64,000 nt of DNA from an uncultured Ruminococcus sp. (GTDB taxonomy: Bacteria > Bacillota > Clostridia > Oscillospirales > Acutalibacteraceae). The stretch is from contig CADACB010000009.1 in assembly GCA_902786345.1 (NCBI GenBank), positions 1-64,000 of the forward strand, written 5' to 3'. The translations under genes and the position numbers were made by a program. This document shows, one piece after another, positions 7,450 to 49,055 of the stretch; within the stretch, counting starts at the first letter, position 1; the number at the start of each line of letters is the position of its first letter. The notes beneath the pieces are model-generated. The model saw nothing but the letters and a program-made list of their open reading frames with translations. It made no database searches and was not told the DNA's origin.

Positions 7450-10065
7450 ATGCTTAAAAAAATAATTTGCGGCATTGTTTCAATAATGATCACATCGGGG
7501 ATAATAAGTGCCTCACATACGATTAATATTACAAACACAAATGCAGACGCAGCCGTTCCGTTTGCATATTCTATTGAACCGCAAAGCTGCTCAGATGAAT
7601 TTGCAGCATCGGAATTCTACCGGAAGCTTACCGCTGCCAAGTCTGAACATTCAAAAGACAGCCTTATGCAAAGGACACTTGCCATTGCAAAATCTCAGGA
7701 CGGATATAAAAACTATTCTCTTGACGGAATAAGCATTGAAAGAGCAAGGCAAGAAGGAAAACTCTGGACAGGAAGAATCCAGCGTGATAACAACGATGAA
7801 ACAGGCAACACGGAATATACAAGATGGATGCAGACGTATGTTGTCGGCAGCAATTCATCATCACAGTATTTCAGCCTTGACTGGTGTGCAATATTTGTAA
7901 GCTGGTGTATGTATCAGGCTGGATATTATTCGGAAGATAAGGATCGCTCTTATTACTATTCTTATTGTGCCGATCCCCGTGTAGAAAATCAATATAACTA
8001 TTGGATAGAGTCATTCAATTTTGATCAGAGCAGAGTGTGGTACACACCTATTGCACAAAGCAAGCTTAATGCATACAGTAAATGGAACAATTTCGTAAAT
8101 ACAAATATTGATCCCTATGATATTCCATATAAACCCGGTGGTCTTATATTCTTCTGCTGGGACGGTGACGGGAAATATTTTGATCACGTAGGTATTGTAG
8201 TTAACTTCAATGCCGGAACACACACACTTACCTATATCAGCGGCAACGATGACGGACAGGTAAGGATACGAAATTATGATTTTGAAGACACCAAATATAA
8301 AGAACAGCCCCGTATAAGAAATACCAACCGCATAATGGCATATGCTGAATACGGAGAAAAGGATAATACCGTACCAAAAACAATAACCGCCGAAAGCACA
8401 AGCTTTGACTGCGAAAGAAACAACAATAACGGTATTACCATTAAAACCAATTCAGAATCAAAAACAGTGTCAATAAGAAAAAACAACACGATCATTGCAG
8501 ACTATAAAAACAGAAATATAACAATAGGCAACGGTATTATCGGAATCGGTGACAAAATTATCAACAGCCTTGATGACGGGGAAAATATTCTTACGCTCTT
8601 TTTAGAGGATGGTCAGATAAACATTACAGTAAATATGACTGAACCTAAAAACAAAGTCATCAGTGCTTCGCCAAATTATATGGAGTGGGACAGATCTTCT
8701 CCGTCAGGTCTTGTTATACAGACAAACTCTGACTCTGATCTTATCGACATATTCAGGAATAACGATCGTCTGGCAACAATAAATACCAACGGTCTTGACA
8801 TACATAACGGTCTTATAGAAATATCGACTGACGTACTTAATGATATTCTTGTTGACGGCACAAATTATCTTCAGATACTTTTGCTTGACGGATCTGTATA
8901 TGTAACGATAGATGTCACTAATGTGAACAGAAAAATATTTGCCGACAACACAAGCTTCACCCGGGAAAAAGGCTCAGAATACGGTATTGAGATACATACA
9001 AGCTCCGGTTCAGATAACCTCAGTCTTATTATGAACGGCATTACCACAGCAAAATCAGACGACAGAAGTCTTTATATAAGAAACGGTACAGTAACAATAA
9101 GCCCGTCAGTTCTGAACAGCATACTCAATGACGGAGAAAACAACATAACTCTTGTGCTTGAAGATGGTCTTCTTGACATTTCTGTATACTCTACAATACC
9201 ACAAAGAGAAATAAACATTGAAAAAAGTTTGTATGAATGGGAAACCACATCAACATACGGTCTTAGAATAAGGACCGACTCAGACTCAGACTCCGTAACT
9301 CTTGACTGTAACAGCAAAAATATTTCCTCAACATATACAAACGGTATTGCAATTACAAGCGGTACAGTTTATATAAGTCCCGACATACTCAGAAATATAC
9401 TTGCCGAAGGTCAGAACAAAGCATCTCTGAGATTCAGTGACGGAAGTGCTGAAATTACAGTGAATTGTATCATACCTGCAAAAACATTGACATCAGATAA
9501 AACAAAATACCTCATAAGAAGCTCACTGGACAGAGATATAATTATCGAAACAAACTCAGATTCAGAAAATGTGACATTAACTTTAAACAGCAAAACCTTC
9601 AGCACTGCCTCTGATAAAAGAATCACTATTAGCAAAGGGAAAGTCACAATAAAAAAATCAATGGTAAAAGATATACTCAACAAAGGAGAAAACAAGGCAG
9701 TTCTTGAATTTGATGACGGTACTCTGAACCTGATTTTCAGATTCATAGACGATGCTTTAAGCCCGACATCTCAACATCAGAATACTAAGAACACTGACAC
9801 CTCTGAACCATCTGAACAAGCAAGTTCATCCGAAGCTTCGGAAAAATCCGCTGCTTCATCAAATAACGGCGATAACGAGCTGCCAATAAATATATCTGAT
9901 ACCTCAGATATATCCTCAGCTGAGTCTTCCGGCAACAGCAATCCGGCAAATATTCCTGATAACAGAACCTCAAACAACACCGTTATCATTCTTTTGATGA
10001 TCGCCTCGGCAGCGTTTGCAGCGGCAGCAGTTGTGTTCATTATTATAAGAAAAACAAAAAAATGA
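7450..10065 (+). CDS. Membrane-anchored CHAP-type peptidoglycan hydrolase with five X2-like modules
   Basis: The 871-residue protein probably cleaves peptide bonds in the cell wall. A signal peptide occupies about residues 1-35. The catalytic domain (about 70-305) has the CHAP/NlpC-type Cys in DWCAIFVSWC (Cys146), the His in DHVGIV (His246) and a polar third position in SGNDD (about 265-268). Five repeats of about 90 residues follow (roughly 310-775). Each ends in a pattern such as VTISPSVLNSIL then DGENNITLVLEDG, matching the X2 Ig-like module found in clostridial wall and cellulosome proteins. A Ser/Glu-rich spacer leads to a C-terminal membrane helix (about 840-865) ending RKTKK. There is no LPXTG motif. 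The start follows GGGAG by eight bases. A weak promoter (TTGATT/TAATAT, 7387-7415) may lie upstream. Confidence 0.85.
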   Translation: MLKKIICGIVSIMITSGIISASHTINITNTNADAAVPFAYSIEPQSCSDEFAASEFYRKLTAAKSEHSKDSLMQRTLAIAKSQDGYKNYSLDGISIERARQEGKLWTGRIQRDNNDETGNTEYTRWMQTYVVGSNSSSQYFSLDWCAIFVSWCMYQAGYYSEDKDRSYYYSYCADPRVENQYNYWIESFNFDQSRVWYTPIAQSKLNAYSKWNNFVNTNIDPYDIPYKPGGLIFFCWDGDGKYFDHVGIVVNFNAGTHTLTYISGNDDGQVRIRNYDFEDTKYKEQPRIRNTNRIMAYAEYGEKDNTVPKTITAESTSFDCERNNNNGITIKTNSESKTVSIRKNNTIIADYKNRNITIGNGIIGIGDKIINSLDDGENILTLFLEDGQINITVNMTEPKNKVISASPNYMEWDRSSPSGLVIQTNSDSDLIDIFRNNDRLATINTNGLDIHNGLIEISTDVLNDILVDGTNYLQILLLDGSVYVTIDVTNVNRKIFADNTSFTREKGSEYGIEIHTSSGSDNLSLIMNGITTAKSDDRSLYIRNGTVTISPSVLNSILNDGENNITLVLEDGLLDISVYSTIPQREINIEKSLYEWETTSTYGLRIRTDSDSDSVTLDCNSKNISSTYTNGIAITSGTVYISPDILRNILAEGQNKASLRFSDGSAEITVNCIIPAKTLTSDKTKYLIRSSLDRDIIIETNSDSENVTLTLNSKTFSTASDKRITISKGKVTIKKSMVKDILNKGENKAVLEFDDGTLNLIFRFIDDALSPTSQHQNTKNTDTSEPSEQASSSEASEKSAASSNNGDNELPINISDTSDISSAESSGNSNPANIPDNRTSNNTVIILLMIASAAFAAAAVVFIIIRKTKK

Positions 10066-31584: not shown

Positions 31585-34500
31585 ATGAAAAAATTTTTTT
31601 TATCAGTTTCATCAGGAATGATTGCCGTTGTCATCGCCTTAACATCATCCATTCCTTCATTGGCAGCTTCAGAAAACAATTGTGAACCGGAAACAGAAAA
31701 TACGATTTCTTCTGTGCAGGTGTCAGGTGAAAATTCCAATAGCAAAAATACGTCTGACGGTAAAAAAACAGATGACGATTCTGAGAATACTTCTTCGGAA
31801 TTGTCATATCCGACTGAAGGTGTTATCCCTGATATGGACTACAACCCTGAGGATGACGGATTTAAGGTTATCAAAAATGCCGAGGATTACTATGACTACA
31901 CCTTTGATCCTGATAACGTTAAACCTATGGGCAACAGTTCTCTCCCCTCTTCAGTGGATAACAGCACTTCAAAATATTTTCCGGAGATCGGCTATCAAAG
32001 AGGCGGCTCTTGTATGTTTCACGCCGCTGTATATAACCAATTTACATATACCTACAACAAGGCTCACAATATCAAAACGGATTATAATACAATCTTTTCA
32101 CCCAAATTCCTCTATAATCTGAATAACCAGGGCACAACCGGGGGTACTGTTGTAAGAGACGGATATAATCTGATGAAAAACATCGGCTGTGTAACTATGC
32201 GTGTTGCTCCGTTCGGACACGATTATACGCCCAACGAGGAGCAATATTGCCGTGAAATATGCACTGACGAATATGCATACAGATTTGCTGCAAATCACCG
32301 TATTGAAGACTTCTATTTCTTTGAACAGCCGGGAACAGGAAACAGACAGGTAACATCTCCGGATGACTCCGATCTTTCAGCTATGAAGGCAGCTCTTGCA
32401 AACGGTGAAATTCTTACCTTCTATAGAATAATAGGTTATACAACAAAATTAAAAGCATCTGATAATCCTGATGTAAACAAGGGTGTTGCCGGTGAAACAT
32501 GCGTTTATTGTTCAACCTCAGGTGATGGTGCACACGAAATGGCAATTGTGGGATACAACGATAATATTTGGACAGATGTAAATAATAACGGACAAATAGA
32601 CAGCGGCGAGATGGGTGCATTCAAGATCGCCAATTCCTATGGTCCAAATCAGGATAATAAAGGTTTTTTATGGGTAGCATATGATGCATTGAACGAAAAA
32701 ACCTCTGTAAACGGAGGACCTCAGCCCGAAAAACGAATTGCCCTGTTCTGGGAAATAGTTGGCATCAAGCTTATGCCGGATGAATATGATCCTCACGTTT
32801 TCCTTAAATGGACACTTAATACAAATGACCGATTCAACAGCTATGTTAAGCTTACCGGAACCTACGGCAGCGAACAGTTCACTGAAACTGTTGACCCTAT
32901 CACCTATAGGTCCGATACTCTTGTAAGAGCTTATGACGGCTATGAAGAAGCAACAGACGCTTCGTTTGTATACAATATGGATCAAATACTGAGCAAATTC
33001 AGTACCGACGATTATACCAAAATCAATTGGACTCTTTCCTTTGAACACACTAAAGATAACGGCAGCAGCCTTATTATCAAGGATTGCTATCTCTATGACG
33101 AGAAAACAGGTCGTATGTATAAACCTCAGAATGCTTATCCCATCACAGTAACCACCGGAAGCAGATCTGTTACTCTTCCCACTGACTACAATAATTTTGC
33201 TATTGTTTATTATAAAGGATATAACGATCCGCTAATCAGCTATTCTTTAGGCAATGTAAATTCAGGCTTTACTACAGAAGCGATGACAAGCAATAACGAT
33301 AAAGACTCATATTATTACAAACATTTAATTAATCTTGGAAAAAATGACGCTGCCTATGCATATTTCAGCAACACTTCAGGCAAGGTGGATAAAAACGGTA
33401 CAGTATATTATAAAGTTCAAAAGGGTTTTAACTATTTTACAACATCTTATGCGGCTGAAAAGCTTACTCTGTCCCTAAGAAAAAATCTTGGAAATATATC
33501 TGATACTGATACAAGTCTTAAGATGTACTGCCAGGCTAAGGGCGGATATGGTCCTTATACCTACAAATATACAATCAAAGACCTGAACACTAATGAAGTT
33601 GTATTCAGCAATAATTATATTCATCCACATTTCGATGAACGTGAGATAACTGCAAAGGAATTGGAATATGCTACAAACACAGACAGCACATTCAAGTTTA
33701 CAAAGGAATCAAAATATTATGTCGTTATTGACGCTAAAGACGTAACCGGTGCAACCACCTCTTATTCATTCAACATAGAGATCAAGGATTTGCCATTCAG
33801 AATAGCACAATTCAACATTGAAAATCCGGCTGATAAATATGAATGCGGCAAAGAGCTTACTTTACGTTATATCACAGAAAACGACTCTTTTTCTCCGGCT
33901 CATTTTTTCAGTAATCTGCGTATATTCAAGGATGGAAAACAGGTTTACAAAAAACTTATTTACCCCACAAACAGTTCTGACAGTACCACAAAACGTATGG
34001 ATATTCCCATAAAATGGACACCTACTATCGGAGGTAATTACACCGCTCTTATCAACAGAACCGATAATGACGGTGCATATGTTTGTGAATCAATAAAGTT
34101 CAGTGTAACAAATAATTCTGTTTCTGCTTCAGAAATAAACATAAACCCCGGAAACAATTTATATATTGGTGAAACAGCAAAGCTTAATGTAACAGCTTCA
34201 AACGGAGTTGGTCCTTATCAGTACAAATATTCCTATATAAGATACGGCGAAGAAAAGGAAATCTCAGCATACAATGAAAACAGCAGCTGCGACTTTGCAG
34301 TGCCAAATGAACCTGGAGCTTATACACTCCGTGTCCTTGTTAAAGACAGTACCGGATGTGAAGCACAAAGCTTTAAGGACATCTGGGTAGAGATACCTCA
34401 TCTTACAGATGTTAAAACAAACAAAGATACATTATATACAAACGACAGCATTAACCTGAGTGTATCCGCAGACCGTATGGCATCATCAATGTCAAAAACA

Positions 34501-35049
34501 AATCTTGTCTATACAGTGATCAGTGATGGCAAAGAAACAGCACTCACCACTGAAGACAATCTGACGGCTGTATGGAAACCCGAAAATGCCGGCGAATATA
34601 CCATCACAGCCACTGTTGAATCAACAGACCGTATGTATAAAACAAAAACGGTTTTTGCAAAAACTACCAAGAAATTTACAGTACAGGAACAGATTGATCC
34701 TCATCCGGATAAATACAAAATTGCAGTAGCTGTAATAAACCACATTGAAAACGAAGGCAGACAGTCAAGCTATAAACTCCATTACTGGAACAATAATAAT
34801 ATGACAGGCGATGCGGATTGTGTTAACACCGGAAAAACCGTTAAAGCAGGTGTGGGTTCATCATATTGGGGCGGTGCTCAGCAAACCTTCACAGTTTATG
34901 AAGCGTATATTCCAAAAACTGCTACCGGATTCAAGTTCCATATAGGCGACAGATGGTTTGGTACAGACGGAGTTGTCTCACAAAGCAAAGGAGTTTACAT
35001 CTTCCACTACTCCGGCAACAAGAGCCTTTATACTAATATCACTTATTAA
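31585..35049 (+). CDS. Secreted papain-family (C1A) cysteine protease with beta-sandwich tail
   Basis: The 1154-residue protein is exported by a signal peptide ending near residue 28. An acidic linker leads to a papain-like domain (about 125-395) with Cys143 in YQRGGSCMFHA, His317 in DGAHEMAIVGY and Asn350 in FKIANSYG. Between His and Asn is an EF-hand/dockerin-like calcium loop, DVNNNGQIDSGE (331-342). The remaining 750 residues are repeated Ig-like strands; a GPY-x-YKY strand recurs (GGYGPYTYKYTI near 651, GVGPYQYKYSYI near 875). The C-terminus (about 1045-1154) is a distinct Trp/Gly-rich module that could bind carbohydrate. No anchor motif is seen. The substrate is unknown. The ATG follows AAAAGGAG. 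Confidence 0.88.
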   Translation: MKKFFLSVSSGMIAVVIALTSSIPSLAASENNCEPETENTISSVQVSGENSNSKNTSDGKKTDDDSENTSSELSYPTEGVIPDMDYNPEDDGFKVIKNAEDYYDYTFDPDNVKPMGNSSLPSSVDNSTSKYFPEIGYQRGGSCMFHAAVYNQFTYTYNKAHNIKTDYNTIFSPKFLYNLNNQGTTGGTVVRDGYNLMKNIGCVTMRVAPFGHDYTPNEEQYCREICTDEYAYRFAANHRIEDFYFFEQPGTGNRQVTSPDDSDLSAMKAALANGEILTFYRIIGYTTKLKASDNPDVNKGVAGETCVYCSTSGDGAHEMAIVGYNDNIWTDVNNNGQIDSGEMGAFKIANSYGPNQDNKGFLWVAYDALNEKTSVNGGPQPEKRIALFWEIVGIKLMPDEYDPHVFLKWTLNTNDRFNSYVKLTGTYGSEQFTETVDPITYRSDTLVRAYDGYEEATDASFVYNMDQILSKFSTDDYTKINWTLSFEHTKDNGSSLIIKDCYLYDEKTGRMYKPQNAYPITVTTGSRSVTLPTDYNNFAIVYYKGYNDPLISYSLGNVNSGFTTEAMTSNNDKDSYYYKHLINLGKNDAAYAYFSNTSGKVDKNGTVYYKVQKGFNYFTTSYAAEKLTLSLRKNLGNISDTDTSLKMYCQAKGGYGPYTYKYTIKDLNTNEVVFSNNYIHPHFDEREITAKELEYATNTDSTFKFTKESKYYVVIDAKDVTGATTSYSFNIEIKDLPFRIAQFNIENPADKYECGKELTLRYITENDSFSPAHFFSNLRIFKDGKQVYKKLIYPTNSSDSTTKRMDIPIKWTPTIGGNYTALINRTDNDGAYVCESIKFSVTNNSVSASEININPGNNLYIGETAKLNVTASNGVGPYQYKYSYIRYGEEKEISAYNENSSCDFAVPNEPGAYTLRVLVKDSTGCEAQSFKDIWVEIPHLTDVKTNKDTLYTNDSINLSVSADRMASSMSKTNLVYTVISDGKETALTTEDNLTAVWKPENAGEYTITATVESTDRMYKTKTVFAKTTKKFTVQEQIDPHPDKYKIAVAVINHIENEGRQSSYKLHYWNNNNMTGDADCVNTGKTVKAGVGSSYWGGAQQTFTVYEAYIPKTATGFKFHIGDRWFGTDGVVSQSKGVYIFHYSGNKSLYTNITY

Positions 35050-36356: not shown

Positions 36357-39300
36357 TCAGGAAGTTGATCTTTGAGAATAAACATAGTTATTGAGTAATC
36401 CTCCGCCGTCAACCGAAACATATTTTTTGCCGTTTCGCTCTTCTAGTTTCGCACTATCCGGAGTCCAAAGGTAATTTACTCCCCAAATGGTTTCCTTCTC
36501 ATATTTCAGAACAATTCTTATTTTTAAATCCTGAGCATCCGGGTTACCCATTATAAAACGTTTACCAGTCATACCGTGTCCGGAATCAAGAAGCTTCATA
36601 TAGCTGTCTCCGGCAGGGGCAACCAGATATACATCATAAGTATATCCTGCCGGCAAACTGGTGCTTATATCATATAAGTGAGCCTTAAGATTGTAAATAT
36701 ATGGGCTTGTACCTTTCAACTCATCAGGTGTATTTCCGTCAAACCATTTTGTCTCATAGTTTTCAACTTTGATCGTATTGTCGGAGTTAAGCCTGAGTTC
36801 CTTGATTGTTGCAAAAATCTGTTCGTAACTCTGCATCAGCTCATCATATACCTTTGCACTTTCTTCATATTCTGCTACAATCGGGTCATTATTATCACGA
36901 AGCTCCTGACTAATATCCTTTTCTGCATCAGTAGCAACCTCGAAGCTTATCCTCTTGTTTCTCTTGCTCGGAACAATACTTACTTTATATAGAGTCATTG
37001 TCTCTTTATCCTCTGCTACTACCCTATAATACTTAGTATAATACTTAATATCAGGATCATCGTCAAAGGTATGGTTAAAGTCTTCATCAACAAGACTGTA
37101 ATGCTTATATTCTTCGTTTTCTTCACCGAAGGAATCATCTATCTTGTCAGACATATTTATCCAATGAGAATTATCTCTGTCAAATTGTCCCGTATTTGCA
37201 TCAATCGGACTTTCGCCGTATGCAGGATCCCAGACCTCAACTGTAGCCATATAAGGTGCCTTAAAGGTTAAACTGCTATGATCAATAGGCTTTCCGGTTA
37301 TATCATCTTTACCTATAAATGCCGTTATGTCGAACTTATCAATCCTGTTATCACCGGTTTCATAGTTCTCATAACCTACATAATGTATTTCATTATGCTC
37401 ATCGGACATTATGATATATGTATCTCTCTGTGAAGACTGAGGAATCGTTTTTGCCATAGCATCATCTTCATATATAACCGGCATACCATTATCGTTATCA
37501 ACATCAGCCTCAAGAAGATAGCTTTCATCATTCGGGTAGCTTTCAATTACAAACGGAGAATATGCTATTGTCCATTCAAAAACATTCTTAGCTGCACCTG
37601 TTCCATCAGTATAGTCAGAAGCTGCAATCTTGTTTGCTTCAGATGACTCTACAGACGGTTTAGGATCATATTTAACCAGACTGATCGTTTTGTCGTTATC
37701 AACTGTCATCTTCAGATCTGTATGATAGCTGAAATACGGAATAAACTTATAGCTTCCGCAGGGAGCATATTTATTAAGCTTGAAGGTCCAGTTATTGTTA
37801 TTGTCATAAGAGATAGTATCAACTCTTTTTTCTATTTCAGCATCTGTCATAAGAGTATAATCACTATCTGTTACAGATTTATAATACACTCTTATTTTGA
37901 ACGGTATCTCATTACCATTGTTATCTGTGCGAACTATATTACCGTGAGTAACTGTTGCACCAAAACCATCTTTTTTGAACAATGCCTTAATAACTTCTGC
38001 ATCGGCTTCGCTGTAATTGAAAATCGAAGGATTATAAGTCGAACCGCCGTTCGCATACATAACCTTGTTTCCATAATCTCTTACATTGCTTGATGACCAT
38101 TGTACATTAAAGGTCGGGCTTTCTCTCTCATCGCCTTCAATTTCACCCTTACCATCGGTAACTGTAAAGCCATCCTTTTTAGTGCTGCCGCTAACAATGT
38201 TTATGCTTGCTAAATTACCTCTGTTCCAAGAACCGTCATAGGAATCATAACCGCCGTTGATAACCTCATAATCAACAATGTTGGTATTCTTAGTATCCTC
38301 AGATGTAACAGCACCCTGCCAATGATAGCTTGCAGGATAGAAATCACCTGTTGTCTCATCAATCTTAACATCAATTCGGTTCATTTCGGTTTTCATTGAC
38401 AACGTCTTGACCTTAGATGATTGTTTAGAGTCCTTATTGACCTTATATTCCTCACCAATAACGGTAATAGTTCCTTTGTTGTCGCTGTCATTATAAACAA
38501 CGCCTGAATCCTTATCATATACTCTGTCTGAAGTATCGTCATAAATGGCATATCCGTCATCATCCGTCAGCACGTGATTGAATATAGGATCTCTTTTTAC
38601 CTTATCATATACGTCATACAAGGTCTCCTGATTGTTGTGCTTTTCAGTTTTATATTCGTTATAAACAAGTCTGCCGTCACTCGCCGTTGTCTTATAACCG
38701 TCATAAACTATAGTGTTATCCTTACCGCCGTCAAGAAGTACTCGCCGGCTGCTGCCGTATGCCTTAGGTGAATATGTTGAAACTATACGATTATAAGTAT
38801 AAATTGCCCAATCGTTAACCTCACGCTGTCGTGACGGTGCCGCAAACATAAGTCCTTCCGACCTACCCTTTAATTTCTCATTCATATTTGACAAATATGA
38901 AGCACCAGATTTGGTAATAAATGCATCACTTACAAATGCTGTAGAGAAATTATAATATGTGGTATAAGCCGCTGCATATCCTGAAGAGTAGCCGCCTGTT
39001 GCATTTGCTGTATTTCTATACTTATTTGAAATATTCCCGTTTCCAAGATCGCCCATCCAGTTATAACGATTTTCATAATAATCTTCATTTCTGGTGTTGT
39101 AATGGGCAAAATACTGAGCGTTTTCCGATTCAAACTCCTTCCAGAAGAAAACTGTTGCAAAGTGCTTTGCCGAAGGCCAGCCTTCATCCTTTGAACGCTC
39201 ATAGAACAGGTCAACACGGTAAAGCCCACCGTAGTATATATCTCCGCCAAAAGCATCAGAAAGACTGATCTTAGCATATCCTGTTGACTGTTTTGTAGCA

Positions 39301-42300
39301 TCATCCTCAACATTCAGCTGTGAACGGAGCTTTTTAAGCTTATAACCTCTTCCAGTACCCTCAGGACTTATATCTTTAAGATCTGCCGATTCATCAAGAT
39401 CATTAAGGGTTGCAGCATCATTCCAGAGTGTATCATCATTAAGCTGTGATGCAAGCACGGAGTGTTTACTATCAGGCTCTACGTTTTCCTTGAGCCACTG
39501 GTTATAATCATACCCTTCAAGATATGGTACTCTGTCCTGATATGAAACGTGTGCCCAGATATTTGAATCATCATACTGCTGATTGTTATTCTGATCATAG
39601 CTGGTATGATGTGCAGCGCTATAATCAACCATATTTTTAGTACTTAGCCAAATCTCAACAGCCTTACTTCTGTTGTTATTATTGGAAAAGCTTACAGTTG
39701 AATGCTGAATGTTAACGGTTCCTTCCGGAACGTTCTGTACATCGTCCTTCTTTGCCATAATATCATTTGACAGGAAGTAGTACGTAACGTCATTACGCTG
39801 TACCTCTTTTTCGGTATTGTCATCATTGAGAACAACATTACCGTGTTCATCATAGACGAAATCGGTATCAGTAAGTGACGGCATACCTTTTACAGCAAGC
39901 AGACCGTTATTAGCGCCTATACCCTTCTTCATACCAAAATTCGCATTATAGTTTGCCGTATCTGAAGGATCATCCACTATTACACCTGCGCCGTTGACCT
40001 TATGCCCATTCTCATCGTATTTGCCGCTGTAATAGTTATCAAGGAATCTCTCCATTTCAGGTACACGCTTTGTCTGATTTGTTCTTGTGAAAACATCAGA
40101 GGTTCTTGCAGTTGAATCCGTAGAATTTGTGCTGTAGTAATAGCCTGTATTATTATTGTTTACAAAATTATCTGCATGAATACCAACAGCCTCAACAAGT
40201 GCTGATGGTTTATAATAGTCAACAATAACATTCAAACGAATGATATTATAATGCTTACCGTCCTCTGAAAGCTGAACACCAAATACTTTTGTGTATACAT
40301 TTTTGCTTGTGTTCAGAATTGTTTCACCGTCCGGATTTGTAGTAATATCTATCGGAACAGAAATCTTCCAGATTTCATCATCTGTACGGTCACGGGAATC
40401 GTCAGCAAGCCTTCCGTTTTTGAAATGATACCACAAGGAAGTATCTTCAAGCTTCTCTTTAACGTTATGACCTTTAATCCACATCTCAGACGTATCAATA
40501 CTAAGAATATCATTTTTTATTGTAGTTTCTCTGTCAGATACCTTATCAAAATTCTTATAGCCTGAATCGTTTTTGTCACCCTTTAATACATAGAAATCCG
40601 AATATCTGTTTGACAGATCTATGTTATCAAGACGGAAATCCATATAACCGTTATGATCTACTTCTTTGTAGTATTCATTGAATGAGCTATCGTATGTATA
40701 CTCACTCTTTTTCTCCGCCGCAAGTGAATTATACTTATCCTTGCTGATATAATACCTTGCATTTGCCGACATATCAAGATCATCAACAGCAACGAAATAA
40801 AACAGGTCTGTATAACGAACGTCATCATAGGTCGTCACATACTTATCTCCGGTATCAGCATCTGTTGTGCTTGGAACCTTACCGTCATCATCATTGACGC
40901 CCGGAACATTGAATTTATCCCTTGCCGGATGTACCTCGACTATGTCAATATAATCACGGTAATACTGATATTTTCTTGAATCGCTATTCTTATATCTCAT
41001 AGCAGAGATAGTATGTGAATCATAAACTTCAGCCATTGTGGACTTCTGCACCTGCTGTGCAAACAACATAAGGTCAGTAAATACTGTCCGTGTTTTTCCC
41101 TGTGATTTGAGCAGTGCATCATAAATCTTATATAGTCCTCTGTAGTTACTGAAGCTTCTGTTCTGGGGATCAAGATTAGGTGAAGACGCAAAATCATCTG
41201 ATTTTGTCACTGTTATAGGAGTACTGAGTATCTCATTCTCCGCATCATCCCTAGTAGTGATACCCGGGCTGAAATTATATTCCAATTGTTCAACATCTAC
41301 ACCATTGATCTTTTTTGTTACAGTATGTTCCCATATTATACCGTCCGGCAAAAAGTGGTCTCCGTCTCTTCCGGTTTTTCCTTCACCCTGTACATAATCA
41401 ATATCACCGGCAACGACAACATATGCCCCCATATTTTCGATCTGATACCTTGTTTCGCCAAAAGGATAACCCGGTGTTGTTGTATCTCTGGCAGGGAATC
41501 TTGTCTTAAAATACTCCTTAAGATAATCAGAAAGGTTGTCAAATTCAGTATACATAATAAGGTTTTCACCATTAAAGCTCCATTCAGACTCTTCGTGTAC
41601 AAGCTTTCTTCTGAAAACAAAATCTCCGTAGAAGAATCCTTCTGACTCACAATTTTTATCGTGATCAAAGTTGCTTGATTTATCAAGAGTTATAAGCTTA
41701 ACATTACCTGCATCAGAACCATATTCAGATCTGGTAGTATCTACAGTATACTTATAAAGAGAATAGTTGTAAACAGGATCAAGTCTGTCATCAGGAGTGG
41801 GGTTGGTTACATTCTGCATCTGACCAAAGAGCTTAAGTGTAAAGCTCTGTGTCATAGAATTATTTTTATAAACCATAAGGTCTGCATTGTGTTTGTAATG
41901 TGACTCTCCATCTGATTTAAGTGACACTGAGCCTACAAGTGAGCCTAAGTGTTTGCTTGAATTTGCAGCCATTTGCTGTACTATCGGCTGATCATAGCCA
42001 AAGACCGCACGGTCGTTAAATCCTCCGTAGTTAATGCAATAGGAATAAGAACCGCCTGCAACATCAAGACCTACAAGTCCGCCAAAATACATACCATAGT
42101 CGACATTTGCTGTTCCTTTGAGTTTATTTGATTGAGAAGTTGTACAGAAATCACTGAATTTTCCGCTTTGCAGATGTATATAACCATAGTTTACAGCGCT
42201 TGCTCTTGAGGATGTGGACTTTTCTATACCGGCTATACCTCCGATAGAATATGCCATCTTTTTATCTACTGCATATCTTGAGATAAACGGATTTCCGGCA

Positions 42301-45300
42301 GGATACATAAAGTAAATGCCGCCATAGTTGATGACTGAGTTTACCTTTCCGTCTCCTCCGCAGCCCATTATACCTCCGATACAAGCAAGAGAATACTCAG
42401 ATGTATTCGGACCCGGGCAGATAAGAAAATCTCCAAAATTCTGGCAGCAACGCATAGTTCCTGACTTTCCGCTTATACCTCCCATATAAAGGTCATCTTT
42501 GAATGATGACTTATCAACATTTACAGAGGTCGGCTCAAACAACTGCAATTCAGCAAAGTTATAGCAATTTGTGATTTCCTGACCCTGAATACCGACAATA
42601 CCGGCATAGGTGGTTCTGAGATCAAGAACTCCGCCTGCGGTATTTATTTCACTGAGTCTGCTGTGAACCAAGCCGTAATTTATGCATTCAACAAGCTTAG
42701 CGTCCATTCTTCCTGCAATTCCGCCTGCAACAGATGCAACAGGAACATTATCTATTGTAATAGTTCCGAAGTTGATACTGTCAGTTATATTTTGAGCTGA
42801 AGCAGCCCTCTCATTACACTGATTGCCTATACCGCCGACGATCGGAATAACCCGGTTCAGAGTTTTGTCTGAAGAAGCACGTTCATATGTTGTTCCGCCA
42901 ACAACTGCCTTGTTAAAGTTTTTAACATCTATATCACCGTGATTTTCCATATTAGAGCCTACGGTGTTATAGAGCAACCCGCTTATAAACAACGGAACAT
43001 ATTTTGTTGCAGCATCACTTGTAACGATATTTTCAACCGTTATTTTTCCATAATTAGCGTTTTTATTTCCGCCTGCTCCTCCAATTATTACAGCCTGTGA
43101 GGGAGTTGAACCATCAAACACTACGTTATTGACGTTTATAGGTGCATAATTCTTTGATTCTCTCATTCTTGCCGAAGATATTCCAAAAACACCAAGGCTG
43201 ACATATGTGTAATTATAATTGACGTCTAGTGTTGAAATACCGCCGTTATGTTTGATAATAACATTGTGTATATTATATTCGCCGTTGACTATATTTTTGT
43301 AGTCATTAGTCGGATCAGAAATATAATCATTCCTGTATATACCGCTGACCATAAGCTTGCCATAAGTGCCGGAAATATCAAAAACTCCGTAACGTTTTTC
43401 AGAATCATAATAAGACGTACTTTTGAAATCATCCAGAAATTTCTTGACATTTGCATGCTGACCCTGAGGCAGTTCACAACCTTCATAATAACCGAACATA
43501 TTCATTGCAGCAGCAGGTTGTCCTGAATTATAGAATATATTCTGTATGTATGCTGAACCTTTTACAACAGAATCCTCAGTCACCCTTACATCGCCAAGGT
43601 TTATATTGCTTCTGTTCCAATAACCATTCTGAGCAAGACCTATAGTTGATATTTCAAGATATGTTGTGTTTCCTCTGAATGCAATGTTTCCGGCATTCAT
43701 ACCATATTCATTATAAGCACCAAATGTCAGACCACGAATATACACATTTCTTATTGACTTGCCGGGAACGTCAAGATAAATATCCGCATAATTCGCGTTA
43801 TAATTACAGTTCTCTAAAGGACTTTGAGAATTAACTCCGCAGCCGTACATAAACAGCGATATGGTATCTTTTGTTGCTTTTTTATTTTCTATAAATTCCA
43901 ATATACCATAATTAGCGTTCCAATTCCGGCTTCCCGTTCCCTCCATCGTAACGCCTCTTACGTTGTTATCATAAAATTCAAAATTGTATCTGTCGAAGTC
44001 AACTGTTACCTTTCCGGTGTTTATGTTTCTGGATGTATAGTTTTCTCCAAATCCAAAACGACCGCCGCATCCGCTGACATATATAGCACGAGTCAGACTG
44101 GAAGGTGAAGGAGCTACATATATATGTCCTTCATTGAAGCAGCATTGCGATTGCAATGCTCCTGTACCTACAATATAGTCAATATAATCGTTAGCATTGT
44201 CGCCGCCAAGAATTATTCCGCCATCATAAACATAAATATTTCCTTTGTTATAACATTTGTTGGCACTTCCGTACCAGTCCCAGTCGCTGTGATTTGATAC
44301 ACAGGAAATTCCGGCGATCTGTGAAACACCGGAGAAATCATAAAGAGGTGCATAGTTACTTGCATAGTATGTCCAGCCATCTCTGCCACCGCAGCCGCTG
44401 ATTGCAACCTTCAAGCGTACAACAGAATAAATCTTACCTTTGTTGCACGAACGGTTTGGAGTATGTCGTGAAATTCCAATCAAATCAGAAAGATTAGACC
44501 TTTGAGTATTTGTATTGTGATAGTCAAGAACAGTATAGTCTCCTTCTATCTCAACAGCCTTTGGCTTTGGCGCAACAACCGGCTTGCCGTTTTCATCATA
44601 GGTTTCTTCTTTTATCTCTTTTGAAAGAACATTGCCATTGGTATCAAGCGGATCGCCGTTTTCATTAAGCACTATGGGAGCGTCAAAGATCATTCCGTCA
44701 TTAAACGTATTGCTTGATTGGTTACGGCTTGAACTATTTGGAAGTCTTCCGGCACAAACACCCGCATAATACGAGTTTGTGGTGTACATACTTGCAAGTG
44801 TCTTATTTGAAGGACCGATCAGTACCGTACCCATAACATTTCCGTGATTAGCACAGTTATGAGTCTGACTTACTGTACAGTCGCCAAACAGACCTCCAAA
44901 GAAATAGCTCTCAGCTATTATTTGCGAATTATCAGTCATTGTCTTGTAACGACCCATAACATTACCATTATTGGTGCAGTTTGACGCATTTGTAATATTA
45001 CCTCCGCCGACAATACCGCCCATTGCCGATCGGAACTGCTTACCTGTACCAAGCTTCACTACAGATGAATTGTGAACATTGAAAAAACTTGAATTTCTTG
45101 AATATGCTGCAAAGGTACCTGTAAAAACATAAGTATTTGGTATTGCAGAACTATTATATGCATTATAGTCCGCATTGGTTTTCAGAAGATCATGATCACC
45201 TGTGCTGAAATCTCCGCCGATCATCTGTATGTTCTGTATGGTTGAGTTTTGTGCATAACCAATCATACCCGCAAAATAATAGTCATCCTTTGCCCTTACA

Positions 45301-47018
45301 GTACCGTTTGTTACGCCGGAAGCAGCATTTACATAAAGATATGAAGGCGTGTTGGGAGTAGATGCCGGAGTATCAATATCAAGCTTATATATGATGTGGC
45401 TCTCCTGCATTTGCTGACCATCACTGTTTGTTCCCATATCGTGGTGAACAAATATATTGTTATCTCCATCCTTTACCTCACCCGAAAGGACATTATTATT
45501 GAAGCCCTTATCGTAGCTTTTTCCCCATTCCTTGAGTACAGCACAGGTATTATTGACAGCCATCCCCTGGGTATATGGCTTTACGCTGCTTGTGACAATA
45601 TCACAGCATACCTGAGGCTTATAGATAAAATCACCGACCTCAGTCATATCTATATCAGAGTCAAATCTGAAATATGATTTATTCTCCGAAAAATACTCAA
45701 AGGAATAAGGAAAGTTTATAAGCTGTGCAGGTGTCGATATAATAAAAGGATCAGCCTCTGTACCGCTGCCGGAATATCCATAAATTCTGGGATATAACCA
45801 GTCTGCACTGTTGGTGCTTGTATTACTATAGCTTGTACCAGCTTTACCTGCTCTTAAAGCCTTGAAGCTTGTGTTCTGCATTCCGTTTTCAGAGAAACCA
45901 ACTCTTCTGAGATCTATGCTCGAAATGCCTTTCATTGTATTCTCATCAGAATTATCAGTCCTGATCTGAGGTTTATTTCCAGCCGCAGCATAAACCACGC
46001 CATACTGATATACATCCTTATCATAGTAACAGTTTTCTATTGTTCCTTCATTTGATGGGCAAACAGGATGCTGTATACCAAGGTCATCCGTTGAATGAAT
46101 AACACCTGCAAAGTATGAGTTGCGTAAAACACCTGTAGCTTTATTTTCTGCTATAAGACCTGCTGAAATATGTACCGTTGAGGTACTTAGCTTATTTACG
46201 TTTATCTGTGTGTGATAATATTCATCAACAATAACATATATATCAGAAACAGTACCTTCATTAACAGCAGCTATACCTCCAACTGATGCAGCACTTATCG
46301 AACACTTTATCCACGGATGATAAAGTCCGAAATTCTTAACTTCGCCGCCCTGCCCGATCCAGCCGAACATACCAAACTTTGCTTTTCTGTATACGGAGAG
46401 ATCCGAAACAAAATACAGATCCCTTATTTCAAAGCCGCGACCGTCAAATTTACCTGTAAATTTATGTTCCTCAGCTCCGATGGGAATAAAATATTTACCG
46501 CTCTGGCTCACATCATAATACTCTATATTGTTGCCAAGTATATAATTTGCCGAAAGATAAAAATCCCTCTCATCAGCTTTCGCTCCGTCAAAACCATTAG
46601 AGAGTCTTGAAAGTGTGTAAAGCTCTGCTGCATTACATATCATTATACTATAGCCTGAGCTCATTTTAGAAGAAGCCTTGCCTGTATCAAAGACATCTCC
46701 CGTACCGCATTCTGCTATGAACTCTGTAAGTGAGATCTTCTTTACAGCCTGATGACCGGCAGCATACTGCACAGTTCTCGGAAGCTCCCCAAGTGCTCCC
46801 GTTCCGTCATAAAGCTCCTTCTTGAAAGATATATCATCATATGTAGGAATATCAGCATGAACTGTTGGTTCATCAAGTCCTTCGTCTGCGTTTGCTCTCA
46901 TATTAAATAGAAAGAAGAGATTTTCCGGCATCACAATTGAAAGCATTATTGTTATAATTACCACAGCCGAAACATATCTTCTCATTCTTTTTATATTTTT
47001 TTGTTTTAACCTTTTCAT
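36357..47018 (-). CDS. Giant secreted repetitive protein, beta-helix-like N-terminal half
   Basis: At 3553 residues this is by far the largest gene here. The start chosen (47018, MKRLKQKNIKRMRR) lies eight bases after a G-rich site; the longer frame would overlap the previous gene and lacks a ribosome site. A basic N-terminus and hydrophobic segment (about 14-35) ending MRANADEG indicate export. Residues from about 50 to 1700 hold a loose repeat of the form N-x-G-x-[IV] followed 15-30 residues later by GG[IL]-x-G (for example NCANHGNVMG, NKGNIYVY, VGGIAAVNEG), typical of parallel beta-helices and GLUG-like repeats. An early GSGTEADPFIIST-AQL motif also belongs to that class. The second half is non-repetitive, Tyr/Asp/Asn-rich; near 3360 it has a YYRVVAEDKETMTLYKVSI cadherin-like strand pair. 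I see no LPXTG, SLH or C-terminal helix. Function unknown. Confidence 0.85.
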   Translation of the reverse strand: MKRLKQKNIKRMRRYVSAVVIITIMLSIVMPENLFFLFNMRANADEGLDEPTVHADIPTYDDISFKKELYDGTGALGELPRTVQYAAGHQAVKKISLTEFIAECGTGDVFDTGKASSKMSSGYSIMICNAAELYTLSRLSNGFDGAKADERDFYLSANYILGNNIEYYDVSQSGKYFIPIGAEEHKFTGKFDGRGFEIRDLYFVSDLSVYRKAKFGMFGWIGQGGEVKNFGLYHPWIKCSISAASVGGIAAVNEGTVSDIYVIVDEYYHTQINVNKLSTSTVHISAGLIAENKATGVLRNSYFAGVIHSTDDLGIQHPVCPSNEGTIENCYYDKDVYQYGVVYAAAGNKPQIRTDNSDENTMKGISSIDLRRVGFSENGMQNTSFKALRAGKAGTSYSNTSTNSADWLYPRIYGYSGSGTEADPFIISTPAQLINFPYSFEYFSENKSYFRFDSDIDMTEVGDFIYKPQVCCDIVTSSVKPYTQGMAVNNTCAVLKEWGKSYDKGFNNNVLSGEVKDGDNNIFVHHDMGTNSDGQQMQESHIIYKLDIDTPASTPNTPSYLYVNAASGVTNGTVRAKDDYYFAGMIGYAQNSTIQNIQMIGGDFSTGDHDLLKTNADYNAYNSSAIPNTYVFTGTFAAYSRNSSFFNVHNSSVVKLGTGKQFRSAMGGIVGGGNITNASNCTNNGNVMGRYKTMTDNSQIIAESYFFGGLFGDCTVSQTHNCANHGNVMGTVLIGPSNKTLASMYTTNSYYAGVCAGRLPNSSSRNQSSNTFNDGMIFDAPIVLNENGDPLDTNGNVLSKEIKEETYDENGKPVVAPKPKAVEIEGDYTVLDYHNTNTQRSNLSDLIGISRHTPNRSCNKGKIYSVVRLKVAISGCGGRDGWTYYASNYAPLYDFSGVSQIAGISCVSNHSDWDWYGSANKCYNKGNIYVYDGGIILGGDNANDYIDYIVGTGALQSQCCFNEGHIYVAPSPSSLTRAIYVSGCGGRFGFGENYTSRNINTGKVTVDFDRYNFEFYDNNVRGVTMEGTGSRNWNANYGILEFIENKKATKDTISLFMYGCGVNSQSPLENCNYNANYADIYLDVPGKSIRNVYIRGLTFGAYNEYGMNAGNIAFRGNTTYLEISTIGLAQNGYWNRSNINLGDVRVTEDSVVKGSAYIQNIFYNSGQPAAAMNMFGYYEGCELPQGQHANVKKFLDDFKSTSYYDSEKRYGVFDISGTYGKLMVSGIYRNDYISDPTNDYKNIVNGEYNIHNVIIKHNGGISTLDVNYNYTYVSLGVFGISSARMRESKNYAPINVNNVVFDGSTPSQAVIIGGAGGNKNANYGKITVENIVTSDAATKYVPLFISGLLYNTVGSNMENHGDIDVKNFNKAVVGGTTYERASSDKTLNRVIPIVGGIGNQCNERAASAQNITDSINFGTITIDNVPVASVAGGIAGRMDAKLVECINYGLVHSRLSEINTAGGVLDLRTTYAGIVGIQGQEITNCYNFAELQLFEPTSVNVDKSSFKDDLYMGGISGKSGTMRCCQNFGDFLICPGPNTSEYSLACIGGIMGCGGDGKVNSVINYGGIYFMYPAGNPFISRYAVDKKMAYSIGGIAGIEKSTSSRASAVNYGYIHLQSGKFSDFCTTSQSNKLKGTANVDYGMYFGGLVGLDVAGGSYSYCINYGGFNDRAVFGYDQPIVQQMAANSSKHLGSLVGSVSLKSDGESHYKHNADLMVYKNNSMTQSFTLKLFGQMQNVTNPTPDDRLDPVYNYSLYKYTVDTTRSEYGSDAGNVKLITLDKSSNFDHDKNCESEGFFYGDFVFRRKLVHEESEWSFNGENLIMYTEFDNLSDYLKEYFKTRFPARDTTTPGYPFGETRYQIENMGAYVVVAGDIDYVQGEGKTGRDGDHFLPDGIIWEHTVTKKINGVDVEQLEYNFSPGITTRDDAENEILSTPITVTKSDDFASSPNLDPQNRSFSNYRGLYKIYDALLKSQGKTRTVFTDLMLFAQQVQKSTMAEVYDSHTISAMRYKNSDSRKYQYYRDYIDIVEVHPARDKFNVPGVNDDDGKVPSTTDADTGDKYVTTYDDVRYTDLFYFVAVDDLDMSANARYYISKDKYNSLAAEKKSEYTYDSSFNEYYKEVDHNGYMDFRLDNIDLSNRYSDFYVLKGDKNDSGYKNFDKVSDRETTIKNDILSIDTSEMWIKGHNVKEKLEDTSLWYHFKNGRLADDSRDRTDDEIWKISVPIDITTNPDGETILNTSKNVYTKVFGVQLSEDGKHYNIIRLNVIVDYYKPSALVEAVGIHADNFVNNNNTGYYYSTNSTDSTARTSDVFTRTNQTKRVPEMERFLDNYYSGKYDENGHKVNGAGVIVDDPSDTANYNANFGMKKGIGANNGLLAVKGMPSLTDTDFVYDEHGNVVLNDDNTEKEVQRNDVTYYFLSNDIMAKKDDVQNVPEGTVNIQHSTVSFSNNNNRSKAVEIWLSTKNMVDYSAAHHTSYDQNNNQQYDDSNIWAHVSYQDRVPYLEGYDYNQWLKENVEPDSKHSVLASQLNDDTLWNDAATLNDLDESADLKDISPEGTGRGYKLKKLRSQLNVEDDATKQSTGYAKISLSDAFGGDIYYGGLYRVDLFYERSKDEGWPSAKHFATVFFWKEFESENAQYFAHYNTRNEDYYENRYNWMGDLGNGNISNKYRNTANATGGYSSGYAAAYTTYYNFSTAFVSDAFITKSGASYLSNMNEKLKGRSEGLMFAAPSRQREVNDWAIYTYNRIVSTYSPKAYGSSRRVLLDGGKDNTIVYDGYKTTASDGRLVYNEYKTEKHNNQETLYDVYDKVKRDPIFNHVLTDDDGYAIYDDTSDRVYDKDSGVVYNDSDNKGTITVIGEEYKVNKDSKQSSKVKTLSMKTEMNRIDVKIDETTGDFYPASYHWQGAVTSEDTKNTNIVDYEVINGGYDSYDGSWNRGNLASINIVSGSTKKDGFTVTDGKGEIEGDERESPTFNVQWSSSNVRDYGNKVMYANGGSTYNPSIFNYSEADAEVIKALFKKDGFGATVTHGNIVRTDNNGNEIPFKIRVYYKSVTDSDYTLMTDAEIEKRVDTISYDNNNNWTFKLNKYAPCGSYKFIPYFSYHTDLKMTVDNDKTISLVKYDPKPSVESSEANKIAASDYTDGTGAAKNVFEWTIAYSPFVIESYPNDESYLLEADVDNDNGMPVIYEDDAMAKTIPQSSQRDTYIIMSDEHNEIHYVGYENYETGDNRIDKFDITAFIGKDDITGKPIDHSSLTFKAPYMATVEVWDPAYGESPIDANTGQFDRDNSHWINMSDKIDDSFGEENEEYKHYSLVDEDFNHTFDDDPDIKYYTKYYRVVAEDKETMTLYKVSIVPSKRNKRISFEVATDAEKDISQELRDNNDPIVAEYEESAKVYDELMQSYEQIFATIKELRLNSDNTIKVENYETKWFDGNTPDELKGTSPYIYNLKAHLYDISTSLPAGYTYDVYLVAPAGDSYMKLLDSGHGMTGKRFIMGNPDAQDLKIRIVLKYEKETIWGVNYLWTPDSAKLEERNGKKYVSVDGGGLLNNYVYSQRSTS

Positions 47019-47034
47019 CCTCAGAACCCCCCGA

Positions 47035-47703
47035 TCACTTCCACGGTAGCTTGGCAAGATGCCAAAGCTCTGTTGCCCTGTTATACTGAACACAATCCAG
47101 TGTTACATATATTCTTGCATAGTCAGCCTTATCTCCAACCTCAACAGGATCCTGTACATCCCTATGTGCATGCGTAAGGTTTATGACAGAGATTGTCTTT
47201 TCTTCGTTGTTTTCTCCCAGCGCATTTGTAAAGTAGATCCAGTTGTCAATTTCACGATTATCATATATAGCATCAGGCTCTCCCCATTCATATGTAGGAA
47301 GTTCGTGCAGAATAAGATCATATGTAGAAGAATCATATTGATTAACACGAAGCCAGCTGATGTCCATTCTCATTCTGACATAATTCTTGGCTTCGCCTTT
47401 ATATGTCAAAGAAATGTTAAGATCTTCAAAATCATCAGCAGGGATCTGATAATACCTTTTTGTTTTTCCGTTCACTACCTCTTCGGTAATCGGAAGTTCA
47501 TTATTTAATTTATCATATATTTTTACAGCTGCATAAAATGTTTGCAGCTCATTGCTTCCGTCCTGTCCGTGACTGTATCTGTATTTTGAATTCGTATAGC
47601 TTATCCAAGTCAGCGCTATAGAAATAATCAAGGCAAAGCTGCACACAATAAGAAACGCTCTTTTCTGCGTCAGCTTCACACTGCTGTTTGTTTTTTCAGG
47701 CAT
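47035..47703 (-). CDS. Membrane-anchored or exported protein, middle gene of surface cluster
   Basis: The protein is 222 residues from the ATG at 47703, behind GGGGGTG; the longer frame would overlap the upstream gene. A hydrophobic segment (about 15-35) ends WISYTNSKYRYSHGQDGS, and a domain with many alternating strands follows (TFYAAVKIYDKL, NYVRMRMDISWLR, YARIYVTLDCVQY). The segment followed by SKY and then a charged Gly/Ser stretch is also found in the gene upstream. It resembles the alternate signal peptides of SipW-processed TasA/camelysin-like fibre proteins, but the match is by eye only. The gene sits 16 bases before the giant gene, so the three are probably cotranscribed. Confidence 0.75.
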   Translation of the reverse strand: MPEKTNSSVKLTQKRAFLIVCSFALIISIALTWISYTNSKYRYSHGQDGSNELQTFYAAVKIYDKLNNELPITEEVVNGKTKRYYQIPADDFEDLNISLTYKGEAKNYVRMRMDISWLRVNQYDSSTYDLILHELPTYEWGEPDAIYDNREIDNWIYFTNALGENNEEKTISVINLTHAHRDVQDPVEVGDKADYARIYVTLDCVQYNRATELWHLAKLPWK

Positions 47704-47728
47704 TACATTTGCACCCCCGTTTATTTTA

Positions 47729-48637
47729 TCAGTCATACTGGTCAGCGTTGACACTTAAAGTAAATGTTTCCTTAAGACTTTCATCCTCGTGACCGTCAGC
47801 AAGAAGAATAACAGACGGCTTATTATGAGAAATCCTTGTCTGTGTATCAAGATCAGCGTCAGCCTTATATACATTATCGTGTTCAACCCACGACACAATA
47901 AGAATCGTCCTTGTTGTATTCGGCTCAACCAGAAGCGGACTCGACGAATCTTCTGTTTCAAATTTATATTGTGCAATTTTGTTTGCTGCAAGAACAAGAC
48001 GATTAAGGTAATCTATATCACCAAGCTTGTTTTCATCATAGGTAATGGTGCTGCCATTCCACTGAAAATCAGCATCCGACGCGAAGTTTGACTGCAGCTT
48101 CACAAGCTGTTGTTTTTCTTTTGCATCTTCAACATCAGCAGGGTTTTTATTAAATTCCTCCATCACGGACTTAAGATATGCCTGAACAGATTTGCTTATG
48201 CTGTCATCATGTTCACTGATATAACTTTCATCCGCATCAATTATAAGCTTCGTATACACACTTTTAGTTCTGTCACGTGCATTATCCATTGCAGTATTTA
48301 TTGTAAAGTTATTAAACAGCACACTGGTTTCACTCTTATTTATAAAGTTCACCCTTGTAAATTCACATGTTTCCTGGTTTATCATAGTAGACGGCTCGGA
48401 AAGCTTACTGGTAGCAAGTACGTGTACATGAACGTCATTTTTAAAGGCTTCCGGATTTTCAGGATCATAATTCTTATATATTACAAAATCAGTATCAAAG
48501 TTCGCTACCCTTGCCGTTTCATCGCCGCTTTCCCTGATTATGTATTTTGAATATGCAAAATTTACAAAAACCACCATTATGAAGAACAAGTATAATACCA
48601 GAAATTTAAAATATCTGTTATCTAAAATCTTTTTCAT
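47729..48637 (-). CDS. TasA/camelysin-like exported protein, first gene of surface cluster
   Basis: The protein is 302 residues from the ATG at 48637, eight bases behind GGGAGGTT. A basic start (KKILDNRYFK) and a long hydrophobic segment (about 11-30) end in NFAYSKYIIRESGDETARVANFDTDF. The SKY-x(6)-G-x-x-x-ARVANF pattern is common among clostridial proteins with SipW-type signal sequences. Beyond it lies a mixed beta domain with an inserted acidic helical part (about 150-200). No SipW-type peptidase gene is in the window. It is followed after 25 bases by the next gene of the cluster. Confidence 0.75.
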   Translation of the reverse strand: MKKILDNRYFKFLVLYLFFIMVVFVNFAYSKYIIRESGDETARVANFDTDFVIYKNYDPENPEAFKNDVHVHVLATSKLSEPSTMINQETCEFTRVNFINKSETSVLFNNFTINTAMDNARDRTKSVYTKLIIDADESYISEHDDSISKSVQAYLKSVMEEFNKNPADVEDAKEKQQLVKLQSNFASDADFQWNGSTITYDENKLGDIDYLNRLVLAANKIAQYKFETEDSSSPLLVEPNTTRTILIVSWVEHDNVYKADADLDTQTRISHNKPSVILLADGHEDESLKETFTLSVNADQYD

Positions 48638-49010: not shown

Positions 49011-49055
49011 TTGTCCGCACATACGTATCAATAACGCACATGCGGACAATTTTTA
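49011..49055 (-). terminator. Terminator after asnB
   Basis: TTGTCCGCACATACG (49011-49025) and CGCACATGCGGACAA (49035-49049) pair nearly fully. It lies immediately after the asnB stop. Both flanks are T-rich on their own strand, so it could block traffic both ways. Confidence 0.8.

Follow-up and report, generated by a model that had tools for sequence, protein, structure and literature searches.

How might a giant exported protein with no recognisable wall anchor stay at the cell surface, and what are the two small exported proteins encoded beside it? These questions are raised by three genes in a 64,000-nucleotide stretch of an uncultured Ruminococcus sp. of the Acutalibacteraceae (assembly GCA_902786345.1, contig CADACB010000009.1, positions 1 to 64,000 of the forward strand; hereafter the window). 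The genes, called here A, B and the giant gene (Table 1), lie on the same strand with gaps of 25 bases between A and B and 16 bases between B and the giant gene, as described in the original prediction, which was made from the sequence alone. Profile scans gave no Pfam or NCBIfam family above the cut-offs for any of the three products. We propose that the trio is a surface-fibre system of the SipW/TasA class with a dedicated giant adhesin, a reading to which we assign a probability of roughly 0.6 and in which processing, fibre formation, docking and adhesion are steps that we infer.

The main evidence comes from homologous loci, designated below, like genomes and contigs, by our own numbers (L, G and C). 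The profile of A (A2) matched in 17 of 398 genomes of the family, strongly in the genome of the window (the own genome), G567 and G671. The last two belong to a second genus and encode the trio in the order giant-A-B. Weak matches in G524, G506, G848 and G643 were SipW-type loci by eye, and those in G762, G613 and G698 led to the genus g377, where the gene run is longer: the giant (5906 amino acids in G613), a small gene X, two SipW-type genes, a TasA-like gene, a third SipW-type gene, and genes resembling A and B. X encodes an exported protein of about 200 to 290 amino acids with a SipW-type N-terminus and is the first small gene after the giant (21 were collected, e.g., L179:7621-8247). Its mature part has no detectable similarity to A, B or the TasA-like proteins.

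An extended profile of B (A7) matched in 47 of the 398 genomes, 28 of them with E <1e-17, in 10 of the 135 genera. The loci counted here are the 29 places with strong matches (28 genomes, the own genome twice) together with G003 and G039, i.e., 31 B loci from 10 genera of one family; the 19 genomes with only weak matches (E 1e-6 to 1e-3) were left out. The original prediction had proposed checking gene order in relatives, and there the genes keep together. A adjoins B in 29 of the 31 loci (the exceptions are in G804 and G749). A giant, i.e., a large open reading frame on the same strand whose last 90 residues contain WG[VLI], is in view within 6 kb of B in 27 loci. In the other four, the contig ends (G603, G812, G749) or its edge cuts the giant (G039), and a giant C-terminus with the WG motif lies on another contig in G603 and G039. 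The giants vary in length from 1160 to 5906 residues between loci.

Most of these loci encode the peptidases and the TasA-like proteins that are missing next to the window trio. In 23 of the 31 loci the 8 kb upstream of B contain two or three SipW-type genes (three in 18), and in 22 loci they occur together with a TasA-like gene (E <1e-8). The profiles of SipW, TasA, A, B and the giant C-terminal domain were home-made, and the loci from which they were built necessarily match (G762 for SipW; G762, G613 and G698 for the TasA-like genes; nine loci for A and B). All 10 SipW-type genes tested, from five B loci, passed the cut-off of the NCBIfam model TIGR02228. The eight loci without upstream SipW-type genes are the six of the window group (two in the own genome, G003, G039, G567 and G671), G521, and G570, whose stretch has broken reading frames. 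Immediately after the C-terminal fragment of the giant, G039 has a SipW-type gene. The sipW-tasA-type gene run is absent from the window trio. Since SipW-type and TasA-like genes are present in the loci of its relatives, the trio is best read, on gene content, as a reduced form of a larger operon of the SipW/TasA class. Outside the family, in a genome of the same class (G323), the region L025:6594-10193 is a larger fibre-type locus, with two SipW-type genes and genes for four small exported proteins that look camelysin-like by eye.

A SipW-type peptidase, which the original prediction had suggested seeking elsewhere in the own genome, was found there: TIGR02228 gave two matches above the cut-off, both on contig C38. 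The N-terminal signature of A is common to exported proteins beside the SipW-type genes of this contig. The region concerned (L008:189-6182) is a separate SipW cluster, with the two SipW-type peptidases and exported proteins that carry a KY...SARVAKF N-terminus.

By profile comparison B is a distant relative of TasA and camelysin, though it falls below Pfam's model. The mature part of the B family scored 66.2 against a TasA/camelysin-like set when aligned in nine rows (20.7 at most in 100 column shuffles) and 77.8 when aligned in 31 rows. The 31-row alignment also scored 48.5 against the TasA-like set of the larger operons (shuffles ≤19.3). Together with the SipW-type genes upstream of B, this is in line with the likeness to SipW-processed fibre proteins that had been suggested from the ARVANF-type ends; A and B are putative SipW substrates. 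The Pfam camelysin model PF12389 matched nothing in the own genome, and two B relatives were also below its cut-off. The NCBIfam signal model TIGR04088 matched a single B relative, below threshold (13.2 vs 19 bits). Sequence searches of solved structures with the profiles of B (A1) and A (A2) gave nothing meaningful; the camelysin-like set (A5) matched the TasA entries 8aur (E 0.05) and 5of1 (E 0.11), ranked below two antibody chains.

A and B had been described as near-identical in N-terminal architecture. This holds for the N-terminus, where both proteins have a hydrophobic segment and then SKY: the profiles of the two families align only over their first 61 columns (hhalign probability 82), or over 56 columns in a second comparison (probability 90). 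The common architecture is therefore restricted to the N-terminus.

The pair may have another role. A and B could be a dedicated anchor or chaperone pair that holds or folds the giant at the surface, in the manner of TapA or CapP, and that does not polymerise. At the six window-group loci and in G521 the trio has no accompanying TasA-like gene, unlike in the fuller operons, and the TasA kinship of A is not established. Moreover, TapA (PMC10151520) and CapP (PMC13082335) are presented as helpers besides the polymer subunit in operons of the sipW-tasA type. On the other hand, B is TasA-like by profile, and polymerisation is reported for the TasA-like proteins of both B. subtilis and B. cereus (PMC9674648, PMC13082335). 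We regard the anchor or chaperone role as rather unlikely, although it is the alternative that survives best.

The C-terminal domain of the giants, which the original prediction had not noticed, is the best candidate for docking, judging from its conservation. When giants of the window type were compared with those of the other type, 75 columns of the domain aligned with a score of 41.3 (≤15.5 in 57 shuffles), and the conserved positions include LP-x-GY and WGV. On this alignment the domain is homologous across genera. The motif was defined on eight of the 27 giants in view; B had led to the remaining 19. In the parts in view, 26 of these giants contain WG[VLI] a single time and that of G567 contains it twice. 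Among 45 control open reading frames of more than 600 amino acids, three have a WG tail: two giants of the same family, whose contigs are cut (G623, G603), and one other protein. The profile of the domain matched in 13 of the 398 genomes of the family. Strict peptide patterns of the giant C-terminus, searched in the genomes of 84,980 species, were matched at a single locus, in RUG291, an uncultured Clostridiales genome whose name we take to belong to a rumen series. We also considered that the WGV tail mimics the C-terminus of B (LWG..LPW); this idea was set aside as unsupported (score 16.1 over 10 columns, against a maximum of 14.8 in 30 shuffles).

The rest of the giant falls into two dissimilar parts, as had been predicted. 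Residues 1-1770 contain 17 N-x-G-x-[IV] motifs (mean 2.4 and maximum 8 in 500 shuffles) and 32 cysteines, whereas the remainder has one motif, as expected by chance, and two cysteines. Several cysteines of the repeat half sit just before an N-x-G motif (by eye), like a stacked ladder. The claimed absence of a wall anchor also stands: there is no LPXTG-type motif and no hydrophobic C-terminal segment in the giant, which places it outside the sortase-anchored adhesins. GLUG repeats (PF07581) score above the Pfam cut-off inside the giants of G613, G762, G703, G842, G627 and G788, with matches spread along the proteins, and the best GLUG score in the own-genome paralogue of the giant is 19.2 bits (cut-off 20.5). 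The repeats of a solved solenoid, 3N6Z, are distantly related to GLUG, according to the accessible part of the report (PMC4021314). By kinship with these GLUG-repeat relatives, the repeat half is likely to be a beta-solenoid. Sequence searches of solved structures with the giant N-terminal profile (A4), the window giant and a piece of a g377 giant gave nothing meaningful.

Such a protein might itself be the structural fibre, with beta-solenoids joined end to end and A and B only initiating or capping it. The giants of another genus, which reach 5906 residues and have GLUG matches along them, fit this idea. However, the second half of the window giant lacks the repeat motif, and the spread in length between loci, from 1160 to 5906 residues, would be unusual for a self-assembling subunit. 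We consider this explanation improbable.

Within its own genus the trio is rare. A search for B in 99 genomes was positive in three: the own genome, with a second copy on contig C4, G003 and G039. The trio is thus found at four places in three genomes, although in G039 the giant runs off the contig. The gene order is A-B-giant in the window, G003 and G039, and giant-A-B on contig C4; this second, differently ordered copy is also new relative to the original prediction. The two B copies of the own genome are 34% identical. The B profile A1 matched in eight of the 64 genomes of the genus, three strongly and five weakly. By eye, the weak matches in G012, G011 and G021 are not SipW loci, and those in G023 and G009 are SipW-type loci. 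A scan of 391 genomes gave four matches, strong in the own genome and weak in G120, G323 and G305, which are SipW-type loci by eye. None of these weak matches entered the counts.

The two ends of the giant differ in their distribution in the genus: the profile of the C-terminal region matched in three of the 64 genomes, and that of the N-terminal region in 33. Nine further contigs with an N-terminal match encode different giants. Like the GLUG-repeat surface proteins, they are giant exported proteins related to the window giant over the N-terminal region; unlike it, none of the nine has a WG tail and seven end in a hydrophobic segment followed by a charged tail. Giants with the latter end probably belong to a different system, held by the wall or the membrane. 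Examples of about 1700-2400 amino acids, with the N-terminal match and the hydrophobic and charged end, are found in L057, L058, L059, L061, L062, L065 and L066.

The B tree joins the two own-genome copies as sisters (support 96/95) despite their different gene orders, and its well-supported branches require two or more changes of order. We had considered the A-B-giant order as the mark of one lineage; the B tree contradicts this, and the A tree, which leaves the window group unresolved, is compatible with one origin. Provided that the B tree is correct, rearrangement has not separated the three genes. An accidental neighbourhood of three exported proteins is very unlikely, given that A lies beside B and the giant is in view in nearly all loci of 10 genera and that sister copies differ in order yet keep the three genes adjacent, and even though the trio is so rare in its own genus (B matched strongly in only three of the 64). 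In profile scans of viral contigs nothing related to B, A or the giant C-terminus was found, and B had no plasmid match. One contig of the viral collection encodes a weak relative (31% identity) of the giant N-terminal region (L067:1901-2452).

A number of results weigh against the trio being a surface-fibre system of the SipW/TasA class. Some concern the peptidases. Neither trio copy of the own genome has an adjoining SipW gene. SipW-type genes occur in 61 of the 64 genomes of the genus, 54 of them over the cut-off, and since they are near-general, their mere presence in a genome is weak evidence. The mature parts of the exported proteins of contig C38 scored 15.2 against the camelysin-like set, which is no match, and we therefore label these proteins only as SipW-type substrates. 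The B loci also share ancestry, and hence their counts are not independent.

Other results concern the small proteins. A and B gave no match to PF12389 at E up to 1. None of the nine TasA-like proteins of the larger operons that were scanned reached the camelysin cut-off (best 20.3 vs 22.5 bits), and of the two scanned members of the camelysin-like reference set one passed it (40.7 bits) and the other had no match. The mature part of A scored 22.8 against the TasA-like set (shuffles ≤15.6; hhalign probability 4) and 27.3 against the camelysin-like set (probability 15.5). We find no convincing similarity of mature A to TasA-like proteins, and its kinship with them appears confined to the SipW-type N-terminus. 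The WGV domain scored little higher than shuffles against both B (16.1; shuffles ≤14.8) and A (14.7; shuffles ≤12.0).

The last group concerns structure. The window giant had no match to GLUG at E up to 10, and the same loose GLUG search gave matches in nine of 14 control genomes, two of them over the cut-off. Structure prediction from two rows each gave a mean predicted local distance difference test score (pLDDT) of 39.9 for A (window and L056) and 27.6 for residues 60-1239 of the giant, and neither model was used. The beta-helix of the original prediction is thus not borne out by a model; the solenoid reading rests on kinship, i.e., on the GLUG repeats of the relatives.

With these reservations, the surface-fibre system of the SipW/TasA class could work as follows. 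A and B would be exported through Sec and probably trimmed by SipW-type peptidases, which in the own genome would be the two of contig C38, acting in trans. B, with its TasA-like domain, would be the fibre or adaptor subunit of a sortase-free assembly, possibly by donor-strand exchange, by analogy with TasA. A would be a partner, cap or assembly factor. The giant would be exported with its own ordinary signal peptide and held on the A/B assembly through the conserved WGV domain, so that its long repeat half would reach out from the cell and bind to a surface or to a neighbouring cell.

Several characterised systems come close to the trio. As in the tapA-sipW-tasA operon of B. subtilis, the fuller relatives encode exported TasA-like proteins and SipW-type peptidases in a single run of genes, B is distantly TasA-like, and the giant does without a sortase motif. 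Unlike that operon, the relatives add a giant with a WGV C-terminus and the partner family A, and 18 of the 31 loci have three SipW-type genes; the window trio, for its part, has none beside it. The sipW-tasA region of B. cereus, with calY and capP, combines two camelysin-type subunits and a helper and is a possible model for A and B: in the accessible part of the report TasA and CalY form heterofilaments with CapP as the helper (PMC13082335). No giant adhesin appears in that part, and mature A has no convincing match to camelysin-like proteins here. The sipW-bsaABCRSD operon of C. perfringens also encodes a SipW-dependent polymer-forming protein and further exported proteins in an anaerobic Clostridia host. 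According to the accessible text (PMC7395162), BsaA polymerises and its secretion depends on the SipW homologue, and the operon has one sipW gene and a two-component system and, as far as that text goes, no giant.

The original prediction held that no such trio was known. In the literature searched, whose coverage leaves out most subscription papers and preprints, we found neither the trio nor the operon nor the WGV domain described. The claim is contradicted in part, because B falls in the characterised TasA/camelysin superfamily: the trio and its operon are a variant of the known SipW/TasA kind for which we found no earlier description.

The features discussed are listed in Table 1. A hairpin resembling a terminator lies after the asparagine-synthase gene that precedes A, and on this ground the trio may form its own transcription unit starting after that gene; a scan of the region gave 10 such sites, compared with a mean of 6.9 (standard deviation 2.9) in shuffles. 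Elsewhere in the window, positions 7450-10065(+) encode an 871-amino-acid protein with a CHAP domain match just below the Pfam cut-off (25.7 vs 26 bits), and two large proteins, of 1154 amino acids at 31585-35049(+) and of 1130 at 3135-6527(-), have no confident Pfam family.

Table 1. Features of the trio, with positions in the window unless a locus is named.
Feature	Position	Strand	Description
Gene A	47729..48637	-	302 amino acids from ATG; exported product with a SipW-type N-terminus (hydrophobic segment, SKY, then ...ARVANF); C-terminus ...ADQYD
Gene B	47035..47703	-	222 amino acids from ATG; exported product, by profile a distant TasA/camelysin relative; hydrophobic segment then SKY; C-terminus VQ-x-NR...LW...LPW
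Giant gene	36357..47018	-	3553 amino acids from ATG; Sec-type signal peptide, repeat half, second half, C-terminal WGV domain
Giant signal peptide	46890..47018	-	Hydrophobic stretch at about residues 12-39 (hydropathy); end estimated by eye, putative cleavage site
Giant repeat half (N-x-G-x-[IV]), residues 60-1770	41709..46841	-	Related to GLUG-repeat proteins; likely beta-solenoid
Giant second part, residues 1771-3448	36675..41708	-	Non-repeat, Asp-rich, nearly Cys-free
Giant C-terminal domain, last 105 residues	36360..36674	-	Shared with giants of other genera; candidate docking module
WGV motif, residues 3512-3514	36477..36485	-	Only WG[VLI] in the window giant
Terminator-like hairpin	49011..49049	-	16 pairs; between the preceding asparagine-synthase gene and A
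Second trio copy in the own genome	L007:200-10724, contig C4		Order giant-A-B; giant of 3047 amino acids

TasA-type fibres are known mainly as scaffolds of Bacillus biofilms. Here giants are encoded in a conserved operon together with TasA-like proteins and several SipW-type peptidases, which suggests that in anaerobes fibres of this type may also carry giant adhesins. We tentatively go one step further, to a proposal that is possible but that we would not yet favour: the WG[VLI] domain would be an undescribed, sortase-free docking signal that fixes giant repeat adhesins to TasA-type fibres in Gram-positives, and the operon giant-X-SipW-SipW-TasA-like-SipW-A-B a distinct class of appendage. 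If true, 10 genera of one Clostridia family would share a distinct class of surface appendage in which three peptidases serve four exported partners. The WGV domain itself offers a concrete motif, open to testing, for how giants without a wall anchor could stay at the Gram-positive surface.

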